A stretch of DNA of 64,000 nt. It comes from an alpha proteobacterium HIMB59. GTDB lineage: Bacteria > Pseudomonadota > Alphaproteobacteria > HIMB59. Location: NCBI GenBank assembly GCA_000299115.1, contig CP003801.1:682001-746000 (forward strand), given 5' to 3'. A program made the position numbers and the translations under genes. Under the pieces are notes generated by a model, which saw only the letters and a program-made list of their open reading frames with translations, ran no database searches and was not told the origin of the DNA. Of the stretch, positions 47,295 through 55,318 are shown piece after piece (position 1 is the stretch's first letter; each line of letters opens with the position of its first letter).

Positions 47295-48008
47295 TTAAAT
47301 TATAGAAATTAAATTTATATTTCTCCCATAGTCCCTATATTTCTTTTTCTTGCTTTCACGAAAACTAAAGTAATTCTTATCTAAGAAAGTATTTTTTTTT
47401 ATATCATGTACCGATGAAATATTTGACTCTGATAGGATATATTTAGCTAATTTCGGTAAGTCGAAGTATATTTTTTGCGTTTGCCTGATAGCAAATCTTT
47501 GGTATTGGGTTTTTAATTTATTAACGAATTCCTCATTTACCTCATATGACTTTACTCTTATACAAGGCCCAATAATTGATTTTATTGATTTATTTTGAGC
47601 ACCTAAGCTAATCATTTTTTTTACAGTATTCTGAATCACACCCTTAACTAATCCTTTCCATCCAGCATGCGCAATTCCAATTACCTGATTTTTAGGATCA
47701 TAAAAGATGATTGGAAGGCAATCAGCGGTGGTTATTCCTAATATTAATGAATTATCTGATGTAACTAGAGCATCACATTTAGGATAAGGATTATTAGCTT
47801 TTGCGACTAAGCATTTACTTGAATGATATTGATCAGGAATTATTAAGTTCTTATCTTTTTTAAACAAAGATCTCTTAGCTAAATTTAAATTTAGTTTAAC
47901 ATTTTTTTTATTATCAAACGATTTAAGTCCACAATTTAAAGATTTATAAATTCCTGTTGAGGAACCATGATTTTTGGAAAAAAATTTATAGCGAATAAAT
48001 TTTTTCAT
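47295..48008 (-). CDS. pgeF: PgeF/YfiH-family multicopper polyphenol oxidase-like protein
   Basis: Peptidoglycan editing factor PgeF removes wrongly incorporated residues in cell-wall precursors; related proteins have purine nucleoside activity. The 237-residue protein has the motif TTADCLPIIFYD near residues 97-108 and GIAHAGWKGLVKGV near 115-128, containing the conserved Cys and His metal ligands, and GPCI near 150 with a further Cys. The C-terminal YFSFRESKKKKYRDYGRNI is typical. Its ATG overlaps the stop of the shifted midA frame in ATGA, so it was coupled to that gene. Confidence 0.9.
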   Translation of the reverse strand: MKKFIRYKFFSKNHGSSTGIYKSLNCGLKSFDNKKNVKLNLNLAKRSLFKKDKNLIIPDQYHSSKCLVAKANNPYPKCDALVTSDNSLILGITTADCLPIIFYDPKNQVIGIAHAGWKGLVKGVIQNTVKKMISLGAQNKSIKSIIGPCIRVKSYEVNEEFVNKLKTQYQRFAIRQTQKIYFDLPKLAKYILSESNISSVHDIKKNTFLDKNYFSFRESKKKKYRDYGRNINLISII

Positions 48009-48325
48009 ATTGAATAAAATGAAATATTTAGGAATTGATCACCCATATTTTCAAAGTTAGAGCCACCAAGCATATCTATAGTTTTATCGACCATATCTTT
48101 ATTTTCAGAATGAGTATTTTGATTCAAATAATTTTCAAATAGTTCTTTTTGAGAAATGACCTTAGGTTTAAAAGTATCAAAATTGTCTTTTAAATATTCA
48201 AAATTAACTCCAAATGAATAGTCAATATTTTCAAATTCTTCGAATAAATTAACCTTCTTATGATTTGATATCAGTCTAAGTGTACTTTTTCTAGGAAGTT
48301 TTAAGTATCCATAATCAGTTGTACT
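48005..48325 (-). pseudogene. C-terminal part of midA, out of frame with the N-terminal part
   Basis: After the A8-T10 tract (minus strand; plus 48326-48343) the +1-shifted frame remains open for 107 codons: it begins STTDYGYLKLPRKSTLRL, continues without a stop, and ends with MGDQFLNISFYSI at a TGA that overlaps the pgeF ATG. DYG followed by a TLR-like segment, and the final MGxxF block, match the C-terminal half of DUF185/MidA-type methyltransferases. One extra T, or loss of two, in the tract would join this to the upstream part to give about 336 residues. So it is a real fragment, not a separate gene. Confidence 0.75.
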
Positions 48326-49014
48326 AAAAAAAAAATTTTTTTTAATTTTTCTTTTAATTGTACTAAGAGATTATCAATTAAGACTGAATGTTCTAGTATG
48401 TCTTTATCTTCAAATTCATAATTGGAATATCTATTTTTCAAGTGTACAGAAATTAAATTTTCTTCATATACTAATTTATATTCATTATTAATTTTTGTTA
48501 TTTTTATTTCATTGAACTTTTGATTTTGATGAATGTATTGTTTTGATCCAAAAGCATCGAAGAATTCATTAGAATAAAAAAACGAGGTAATATTTGGATT
48601 AATTTTAATATTTTGTAGATCATCAAAAACCTCAGCTGAGGGTATCTTTTTTTTTATCTCTTTGATGAAGAAATCACTTTTCTCTAATATCGAAATCTTT
48701 TGAACTTCTATCTTTTTTGATTTTAAATAGTTCAAGATATCAAGGGTCAAATATCCATTACCTGGCCCAAATTCAATTAAATGAACTTCTTTTGTATCAG
48801 GAAATGCAGATAAAAATTGATTAGTTAGACATATACCAAATAAAGATGATATTTCTGGCGAGGTAATAAAATGTCCTTTGTTTCCAATTTTTTTTATTTC
48901 TTTAGAATTATAAAAACCATCTTTTTTTGAGAAATTAGATATTTCAACAAAATCTTGGATGCTTATACTGCCAGAGGCCCTTATAGCCAAATCTATTTTT
49001 TGTTGTACAGACAT
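48301..49014 (-). CDS. NDUFAF7/MidA-family SAM-dependent methyltransferase, N-terminal part; frameshifted
   Basis: DUF185 (MidA/NDUFAF7) proteins are methyltransferases; the mitochondrial one methylates an Arg of complex I subunit NDUFS2. The 237-residue frame has the SAM-binding motif LIEFGPGNGYLTLDIL near residues 77-92 and EFFDAFGSKQ near 147. Its last eight residues (LVQLIMDT) are off-frame, reached after a homopolymer. The true protein likely continues into 48005-48325. Either the gene is recently disrupted, or transcriptional slippage rescues it, or the base call is wrong. It is sandwiched in the conserved lgt-midA-pgeF operon, overlapping lgt by 22 bases. Confidence 0.82.
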   Translation of the reverse strand: MSVQQKIDLAIRASGSISIQDFVEISNFSKKDGFYNSKEIKKIGNKGHFITSPEISSLFGICLTNQFLSAFPDTKEVHLIEFGPGNGYLTLDILNYLKSKKIEVQKISILEKSDFFIKEIKKKIPSAEVFDDLQNIKINPNITSFFYSNEFFDAFGSKQYIHQNQKFNEIKITKINNEYKLVYEENLISVHLKNRYSNYEFEDKDILEHSVLIDNLLVQLKEKLKKIFFLVQLIMDT

Positions 49015-49772
49015 AAATATAAAATCACCAAACCAATGAATAAAATTGGAATGCTTAAAATTTGACCTTGAGTAAAAAGATTATATTTAATTCCGATTTG
49101 AACATCTGGCTCCCTTAAGTATTCAATTAGAAATCTTACGATTGAATAATTAATTAAAAAGATACTTGTTATCAGACCTTTTGGAATTTTTTTTAATAAT
49201 TTAAAAATACAAAATAAAATTATAAAAGGAATAAGACCTTCGAATACTGCCTCATAAATTTGAGATAAATGTCTATAAAATTCTTCACCAGAATATCGAA
49301 TACTTATAAAAAAATCAGTTTTTCTGCCAATGAGTTCTTGATTTGTAAAATTAGATAATCTTCCTAAAAAAATTCCCAAGGGTGCAGTAATACTTAATAA
49401 ATCAGCAAGTAGAAATAATTTAATGGAATAAATTTTGGTGAATATAATTGTGGTCAATATAATTCCAAATAGGGCCCCATGAAATGACATTCCACCTTCC
49501 CATACTTTTAATATATCTAGGGGGTTAGATGAATAAAATGAAAAATTATAAAAGATAACATAGCCTAATCTTCCACCAATAATTACTGATAAAAATAAAT
49601 AAAAAAATAAATCATCTAATTTCTTTTTATCTAAGTTAAAATCATTAAGATGAGATGCTGCAAATATATAAAAATAAATAAAACCCAATATATAAGAAAG
49701 ACTGTACCAACGAATGGCTAAGCCAAAAAATTCAAAAGCTACCGGTGATAAAAATTCAGGATATTCAAACAC
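48993..49772 (-). CDS. lgt: Prolipoprotein diacylglyceryl transferase
   Basis: Lgt transfers diacylglycerol from phosphatidylglycerol to the lipobox Cys of prelipoproteins. The 259-residue membrane protein has about seven helices, GGRLGYVIFYN near residue 62, the conserved GGMSFHGALFGI near 92-103, and the Lgt signature GRLSNFTNQELIGRK near 137-151. The start is GTG at 49772. It serves proteins such as the predicted lipoprotein at 24.0 kb. It is divergent from the ubiK-ybjN-proC group and overlaps midA. Confidence 0.95.
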   Translation of the reverse strand: MFEYPEFLSPVAFEFFGLAIRWYSLSYILGFIYFYIFAASHLNDFNLDKKKLDDLFFYLFLSVIIGGRLGYVIFYNFSFYSSNPLDILKVWEGGMSFHGALFGIILTTIIFTKIYSIKLFLLADLLSITAPLGIFLGRLSNFTNQELIGRKTDFFISIRYSGEEFYRHLSQIYEAVFEGLIPFIILFCIFKLLKKIPKGLITSIFLINYSIVRFLIEYLREPDVQIGIKYNLFTQGQILSIPILFIGLVILYLCLYNKK

Positions 49773-53952: not shown

Positions 53953-54368
53953 TACAAAGACTCAATTATATTGATAAATCCTGCCATATTTTTAGGGTCA
54001 GTTTTCTGAAATACTTTAATGACTTTTTCATTTATACGATTAGTTGTTTTTTCTAATAAATCTAAACCTAATGTTGTAATTTCAGTATTCTTGTTATCAT
54101 TTGAGATTATTTTCTTAGTTTGTAAATCTTTGAGAATAAGGTTGAGATTTTGTTTTTTCAAATAAACTTTATTAGCTATTTCTATTTTTTTCTTAAATCC
54201 TTTTTTAATTTCCAAAAGGACAAGTAATTCATTAAAAGTTAAATTATTTAGTTCACAACAAGTCTGGATTTCTCTTTGTAGGTATTTGTAAGATCGATGG
54301 AGTCCTAGAATGATCTCTAAGATATTTTCTTTTTTAAAGTAGAGTGTATCGGCAAAATTTAAATTCAT
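53952..54368 (-). CDS. MarR-family transcriptional regulator (PetP-like)
   Basis: A 138-residue helical protein with a probable winged helix: LTFNELLVLLEIKKGFKKKIEIANKV near residues 43-68 and YLKKQNLNLILKDLQTKKII near 69-88, then a wing and C-terminal dimer helix. Recognition helix residues are lysine-rich. Its place at the head of an OmpR/EnvZ pair and divergent from ilvE is a common alphaproteobacterial layout, in which the MarR gene is PetP-like. Regulator family is probable; target genes unknown. Confidence 0.75.
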   Translation of the reverse strand: MNLNFADTLYFKKENILEIILGLHRSYKYLQREIQTCCELNNLTFNELLVLLEIKKGFKKKIEIANKVYLKKQNLNLILKDLQTKKIISNDNKNTEITTLGLDLLEKTTNRINEKVIKVFQKTDPKNMAGFINIIESL

Positions 54369-54427
54369 ATCTCTAATTCATAATTATATTGTGCAATGAA
54401 ATAAATAATATTACATTATTGCGAATT

Positions 54428-55318
54428 ATGGAAATTATCCCTTTTGATAAAAGAATAGGTTTTATTTGGTATAATGGTGAGTTCGTTGAATGGCAAAATG
54501 CAACCACGCATGTATTAAATCATGGACTTCACTATGCCAGTTGCGTATTTGAGGGGGTTAGAGTTTATGGTGAGAAGATCTATAAACTGGAACAACATAC
54601 TGATCGACTATTCCATTCTGCTGAAAGAATGGGAATGAGAATCCCTTTCACTAAAGAGGAATTAAACAAAGCTCAAGAAGATACAATTAGAAAAATGAAT
54701 ATAAAATATGGTTATATTCGTCCAGTAGTATGGAGGGGCAGTGAAATGATGGCTGTATCTGCTCAAAAAAATAAGATTAATGTGGCTATTGCTACATGGG
54801 AGTGGCCCAGCTACTTTTCTAAAGAGGATCGACTCAAAGGAATTTCTTTGCAATCCGCTATTTGGAAAAGACCTGCACCAGATACAATACCAACTGATGC
54901 AAAGGCTGCCGGACTTTACATGATTTGTACTTTAAGCAAACATGAAGCTGAAAAAAATGGTTATACAGATGCATTAATGCTGGATTACAAAGGAAGAGTG
55001 GCAGAGTCAACAGGATCAAATATTTTCTTTGTAATAGGAGGAGAGATACATACTCCTGTTCCTGATTGTTTTTTAAATGGAATCACTCGACAGACAGTTA
55101 TTGATTTAGCTAAACAGCAGGGGATCAAAGTAGTTGAAAGAGAAATTTATCCTGATGAAATTCAAAAAGCTGATGAGATATTTCTAACTGGTTCTGCTGT
55201 AGAAGTTACACCTGTTGGAAAAATTAATGATCAAACTTTTAAAGTAGGGGATATTACAAGTAAAATTTTAAACCTATACATGAAAGAAGTTGACCCCAAT
55301 TATCAGGAGTCTAACTAA
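54428..55318 (+). CDS. ilvE: Branched-chain-amino-acid aminotransferase
   Basis: IlvE performs the last transamination of valine, leucine and isoleucine synthesis using PLP. I chose the ATG at 54428 (MEIIPFDKRIGFIWYNGE, 296 residues), as the ATG at 54389 adds an unlikely leader. Motifs: HGLHYASCVFEGVR near residues 33-46, KAAGLYM near 158 with the PLP Lys, and ESTGSNIFFV near 194. FLTGSAVEVTPVG near 255 is also conserved. Length is normal. Its last 8 bases overlap the convergent moaE gene. Confidence 0.94.
   Translation: MEIIPFDKRIGFIWYNGEFVEWQNATTHVLNHGLHYASCVFEGVRVYGEKIYKLEQHTDRLFHSAERMGMRIPFTKEELNKAQEDTIRKMNIKYGYIRPVVWRGSEMMAVSAQKNKINVAIATWEWPSYFSKEDRLKGISLQSAIWKRPAPDTIPTDAKAAGLYMICTLSKHEAEKNGYTDALMLDYKGRVAESTGSNIFFVIGGEIHTPVPDCFLNGITRQTVIDLAKQQGIKVVEREIYPDEIQKADEIFLTGSAVEVTPVGKINDQTFKVGDITSKILNLYMKEVDPNYQESN

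Follow-up and report, generated by a model that had tools for sequence, protein, structure and literature searches.

Introduction

MidA belongs to the same protein family (PF02636) as human NDUFAF7, a homologue that is reported to modify an arginine of the complex I subunit NDUFS2, which becomes symmetrically dimethylated (PMC3829151). The modification has likewise been reported for complex I of Paracoccus but not for that of E. coli, and its site is an HRGxE motif (PMC8042128). A MidA that methylates DNA is described for Wolbachia; that activity has no bearing on the lesion described below. The midA gene of the alpha proteobacterium HIMB59 shares with MidA/NDUFAF7 the sequence family, the SAM-binding block and the DYGY block; unlike the described members, its frame is broken after about two thirds of its length, and its activity on complex I is putative.

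Genes that are intact except for a homopolymer frameshift are known from Buchnera and Blochmannia, where rescue by transcriptional slippage is thought to occur or has been shown (PMC3017870, PMC5009743). In Blochmannia vafer, eight genes are reported to carry an indel in a polyA or polyT run, for which rescue by slippage was proposed, and four genes that are broken only there are described as free of accelerated evolution (PMC3017870). E. coli RNA polymerase is reported to have rescued frameshifted reporters only where the run reached 7 T or exceeded 7 A, insertion giving about 5% (T7) and 10% (T8) of the in-frame control; rescue generally rises with run length, and T runs are preferred over A runs (PMC6260861). 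The midA gene of HIMB59 resembles the Buchnera and Blochmannia genes (PMC3017870, PMC5009743) in its AT-rich genome, its one indel in a long A/T run and its lack of decay. It differs from them in that HIMB59 is free-living and marine, the lesion is found in no relative examined, and the case is known from DNA alone.

The other closely similar class of cases is that of homopolymer miscounts in assembled low-GC genomes. Homopolymer errors in assembled genes have been put at 0.32–1.02% for Illumina and 2.13–2.78% for Roche 454; the 454 errors are described as favoring A and T as well as longer runs, and in low-GC genomes sequenced by 454 homopolymer errors may reach 20% or more of genes (PMC3277595). 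The HIMB59 lesion is like such miscounts in its A/T bias, its long run, its single base and a share of about 1% of genes, and unlike them in that no sequencing platform for HIMB59 was found in the literature and in that many runs of the same length occur within intact frames.

Results

The window that we analyzed, a stretch of 64,000 nucleotides, comprises bases 682001–746000 of the genome of HIMB59, a strain of the AEGEAN-169/HIMB59 clade. The genome is a single contig of 1,410,127 bases and has been described as 1410 kb with 32.3% GC (PMC3815206). Strain LSUCC0245 is reported to be closely related to it (PMC10308909). Three genes stand in a row on its minus strand, lgt, then midA, then pgeF, with short overlaps between them (Table 1); the first 22 nt of midA (48993–49014) also belong to lgt. 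The C-terminus of the 237-residue midA frame reads LKKIFFLVQLIMDT before its stop; as the first-pass annotation had it, the frame passes through the tract and ends early, after LVQLIMDT. A second frame is open from 48370 to 48005 (121 codons from stop to stop), and past the tract it runs for 107 codons including its stop, with the C-terminus FENMGDQFLNISFYSI. As claimed, this frame ends in the MGDQF block and overlaps the pgeF start, the two sharing an ATGA. Its label has to be corrected: it had been named the +1-shifted frame and is actually the -1 frame, which is entered if the DNA or the mRNA gains one base, or if the ribosome shifts by -1.

Table 1. Features of the midA locus; positions are counted from the first base of the window.
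Feature	Positions	Strand	Description	Support
lgt	48993-49772	minus	precedes midA	TIGR00544, E 2.3e-58, above cut-off
midA, N-terminal open frame	48301-49014	minus	237 aa; EFGPGNGYL block; ends at premature TAA 48301-48303	PF02636, E 5.8e-17, profile 1-185 of 249
A8T10 tract (plus strand: A10T8)	48326-48343	minus	longest A-then-T tract in 400 kb genome sample	
midA, C-terminal third	48005-48325	minus	-1 frame; 106 codons and TGA; DYGY and MGDQF blocks	
ATGA overlap of downstream-frame midA stop and pgeF start	48005-48008	minus	TGA 48005-48007; ATG 48006-48008	
pgeF	47295-48008	minus	next gene, same direction as midA	TIGR00726, E 7.5e-47, above cut-off

The truncated ORF matched the Methyltransf_28 profile (PF02636) at 62.4 bits (cut-off 23.3) over positions 1–185 of 249, and the intact gene of a relative (locus L002) matched it at 90.3 bits over positions 1–235. 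The C-terminal part searched alone against Pfam gave no match, and the complete domain is not contained in one reading frame here, its remainder sitting in the -1 frame. The EFGPGNGYL block of the N-terminal frame is what we take to be the SAM-binding motif; the truncated product is probably non-functional because the DYGY block falls in the part that is lost. A second intact relative (locus L003) aligns with PDB 5ztz, an NDUFAF7 homologue presumably from Dictyostelium (E 1.2e-11), and with 1zkd, a DUF185 protein (E 2e-8). The records of L002 and L003 are titled Pelagibacteraceae, and the genome search puts these contigs (G064 and G063) in the genus of HIMB59. NuoD is present in HIMB59 and carries an HRGTE motif, so the presumed target of MidA remains, the arginine of this motif being the residue on which the enzyme would presumably act.

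When the first frame was searched in 59 other genomes, 41 of them matched, 21 of the 36 from the same genus and 20 of the 23 from the same order, each time in an open frame of at least 320 aa without a stop. With the C-terminal part as query, 35 of 51 other same-genus genomes gave a match, and in 34 of these the matched part lies in one frame of 320–384 aa; in the 35th (G065) a contig end cuts the gene before the tract, in G025 a contig end lies past the tract, and G066 showed an additional weak C-terminal match in another ORF. The 16 same-genus genomes without a C-terminal match are drafts of 50–89% completeness, and midA is present in all ten near-complete genomes of the genus, that of HIMB59 included. 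The C-terminal part of the HIMB59 gene is 94% and 71% identical to the intact genes of two relatives, and, given this identity, the frame break with its C-terminal remainder is, to judge from the sequences, not a product of chance.

The 34 same-genus relatives that have a frame running across the tract are all unbroken at that point. The tract itself was read in 33 of the 35 relatives with a C-terminal match, G071 and G074 being the exceptions. The closest relative, a metagenome-assembled genome (G060, the same as G064; locus L002, contig BOYI01000001.1; 94% identical), has A9T10 and an open frame, and the other 32 have T runs of 4–9, some of them interrupted. The comparison of lengths is between A8T10 in HIMB59 and A9T10 in its closest relative, the remaining relatives that were read being without a long tract. 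The long tract thus arises locally, from AAA and TTT codons in a conserved stretch rich in Phe, and is not a conserved element.

Selection on the two sides of the lesion was estimated from HIMB59 and L002, with L003 used to polarize the changes on the HIMB59 branch. The N-terminal 223 codons hold 25 synonymous and 12 nonsynonymous differences (dN/dS 0.098) and the C-terminal 106 codons 11 and 9 (dN/dS 0.17, bootstrap 0.04–0.49), with no difference between the two parts (Fisher P 0.40). On the HIMB59 branch, 12 synonymous and 9 nonsynonymous changes fall in the N-terminal part, where 10 more are not polarizable, and 6 and 4 in the C-terminal part, where 5 more are not. Without selection, about 8 nonsynonymous changes would be expected among the 10 in the C-terminal part, and neutrality is rejected there (P 0.005). 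No further stop or frameshift occurs within these 106 codons. The first-pass annotation expected a decayed gene to have gathered more lesions; midA has a single lesion with purifying selection downstream of it, and this lack of decay means that the lesion is recent, rescued, or not real. The C-terminal value of 0.17 is high against the 189 intact orthologues in the sample, of which 1.6% reach it (median 0.045), the counts behind it being small and the dS of midA lying so far under the orthologue median that the ratio is not directly comparable to theirs. That dS, 0.21–0.23, is about one third of the median of 0.695 for the 189 orthologues (HIMB59 versus L002), a pattern that recombination at this locus or its strong conservation would leave.

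In order to place the lesion among the other genes, a 400 kb sample of the HIMB59 genome was set against three comparators: 400 kb from G060, and about 200 kb from either of G018 and G029, two drafts whose sequencing platform is not given. When 200 ORFs of G018 were searched in HIMB59, 179 matched over at least 85% of their length, 17 had no match, 1 matched in part and 3 were apparently frameshifted; the corresponding figures for 200 ORFs of G029 were 171, 22, 5 and 2. The frameshifted HIMB59 genes common to both comparators are midA (at A8T10) and a gene at genome positions 833625–835084 (at A6T8), each one base short. The third candidate from G018 (window positions about 53955–54507) proved to be an antisense artefact, the first 43 residues of the ORF matching the strand opposite another gene, and four ORFs of G029 with stops inside their best match were put down to start placement, since in HIMB59 these stops come no later than residue 13 of the region that matches. 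The reverse test, comparator genes against HIMB59 ORFs, gave no frameshifted gene in G018 (189 matches over at least 85%) or in G029 (177), two cases against none being too few for a firm statement.

The closest relative, G060, was discarded as an error-free standard, because 96 out of 425 ORFs of HIMB59 seem to be frameshifted there, and G018 and G029 took its place. Its indels relative to HIMB59 are of one base and lie mostly at runs of 1–3, and its long A/T runs are mostly of equal length, as in 45 of 50 comparable coding runs of 9–10 A or T. In the other direction, 13 of 530 ORFs of G060 appeared frameshifted in HIMB59. Two of these cases, midA and the second gene, were kept; the remaining 11 were judged, from their coordinates and lengths as a group, to be short or to stem from breaks in G060. 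A further 16 ORFs of G060 had stops inside their best match.

The second broken gene encodes a protein of about 486 aa that is conserved in the clade and has no recognized family; its longer part gave no match above cut-off when searched against Pfam. Among 32 matching relatives it is open over 466–531 aa in 27, ends at contig ends in G074 and G020, is a fragment only in G024, and carries one frameshift of its own, elsewhere in the gene, in each of G008 and G034. Single-base lesions are therefore not confined to HIMB59, and this gene is a weaker witness than midA. That it has the same one-base lesion at an A-then-T tract argues for an effect of tract length, with nothing particular to midA. 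Among the A-then-T runs of the 400 kb sample, the midA tract with its 18 bases stands first and that of the second gene (14) ties for third. T-then-A tracts reach similar lengths, with one of 18 bases outside any ORF and, within ORFs, two of 16. The ORFs of the sample contain 14 ten-base and 87 nine-base runs of A or T, yet only two broken genes were seen.

Discussion

What the first-pass annotation had described, a midA split by a single frameshift at an A/T tract and otherwise intact, stands: there is one lesion, and the remainder is open and under purifying selection. With the frameshift itself confirmed, the case comes down to a common kind of tract problem, one base in a conserved gene, and midA appears to be a normal member of the lgt-midA-pgeF row, neither a conserved switch nor a gene in decay. 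All of the explanations that had been offered (slippage, length polymorphism, assembly error) are live options; the idea of a switchable midA is not supported, the long tract being shared only with the closest relative among the 33 read and none of the 34 with a frame across it being broken there.

Our first choice for the cause is a homopolymer miscount in the assembly, to which we give about an even chance, and we infer such a miscount rather than a true one-base deletion. An AT-rich genome would encode the stretch Lys-Lys-(Asn/Ile)-Phe-Phe-Phe, a hydrophobic run ahead of the DYGY block of the family, with AAA and TTT codons and so create a long A-then-T tract, and one base lost from the count at the longest such tract of the region would leave an apparent midA frameshift in the record. 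A problem of the tract, be it a miscount or a recent slippage mutation, is indicated because the run is the longest of its kind in the sample, where another gene shows a like one-base lesion. Two broken genes in about 180, or about 1%, fit the lower published error figures and not raw 454 data. Against a miscount, many nine- and ten-base coding runs are intact while a T8 was enough for the break in the second gene, the closest comparator is noisy, the second gene is also frameshifted, at other places, in G008 and G034, and a real slippage mutation predicts nearly every point that supports the miscount. A clearly less probable, though serious, alternative is that the deletion is real and recent and that RNA polymerase slips on T10 (and on A8), adding one base to a share of the mRNA and thereby giving a certain amount of full-length MidA next to the 237-residue form. 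Should the recorded DNA be correct, such slippage is the likely rescue, and on T10 it would plausibly allow part of the product to reach full length. Published measurements put the tract in the long-enough range (PMC6260861), the needed direction (one base added) fits, and the same situation has been described in Blochmannia vafer (PMC3017870). Like genes rescued in this way, midA has a single indel in a long A/T run, an intact remainder and purifying selection on both sides (0.098 and 0.17, the C-terminal interval being as wide as 0.04–0.49); unlike them, it does not share its frameshift across lineages (0 of 34 same-genus relatives), nor is its tract conserved among relatives. The downstream part shows no decay, which a miscount predicts equally well; a literature search on SAR11 together with transcriptional slippage found nothing. 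We consider it unlikely that a real A8T10 yields, by slippage of RNA polymerase, a fixed minority of full-length MidA beside the truncated form. If the tract was miscounted, nothing needs explaining.

The deletion could also be real and recent without any rescue, the sequenced culture having no working MidA after a one-off loss that was fixed during isolation or culture. The lesion is single and not old, and long A/T tracts mutate often, the poly(A) tract in inlA being reported to mutate about 1,000 fold over point mutation (PMC2831843); we nevertheless hold such a loss to be rather improbable, as midA is kept in all nine other near-complete genomes of the genus and NuoD with the HRGTE arginine, its presumed target, is present. 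Still less is to be said for a programmed device, be it ribosomal frameshifting by -1 or switching of midA through phase variation of the tract, which we rate as very improbable. The downstream frame is indeed the -1 frame, and in-phase heptamers that follow the slippery-heptamer rule for -1 ribosomal frameshifting are present (A_AAA_AAA, U_UUU_UUU, U_UUU_UUA). The 108 nt from the tract, on the other hand, fold worse than shuffled sequence (z +1.67; 196 of 200 shuffles at least as stable), and neither the tract nor the frame break is conserved (tract read in 33 of 35 relatives); with heptamers but without downstream structure or conservation, programmed frameshifting was rejected. A housekeeping gene would be an unusual contingency locus, which counts against a phase-variable midA, and literature on phase variation, homopolymers and frameshifts in Pelagibacter gave no mention of Pelagibacter among the matches listed. 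That midA is an old pseudogene in decay is hardly credible: the premature stop removes the C-terminal quarter of the Pfam domain from the first frame, and the C-terminal dN/dS is high among the orthologues, on few sites, but the downstream codons are unbroken and under purifying selection, and the selection test disfavors such a history.

The case mostly carries a caution: apparent pseudogenes in AT-rich reference genomes of abundant marine bacteria may be tract-length errors, and two genes apparently broken by tract length turned up in 400 kb. Were the lesion real, it would offer a simple test of whether complex I in the HIMB59 group needs MidA, and slippage rescue would extend from endosymbionts to free-living plankton. 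Under slippage rescue, a break in the first frame would be tolerated in a free-living, streamlined marine bacterium whose complex I maturation depends on leaky expression, and translation of pgeF would be partly uncoupled.
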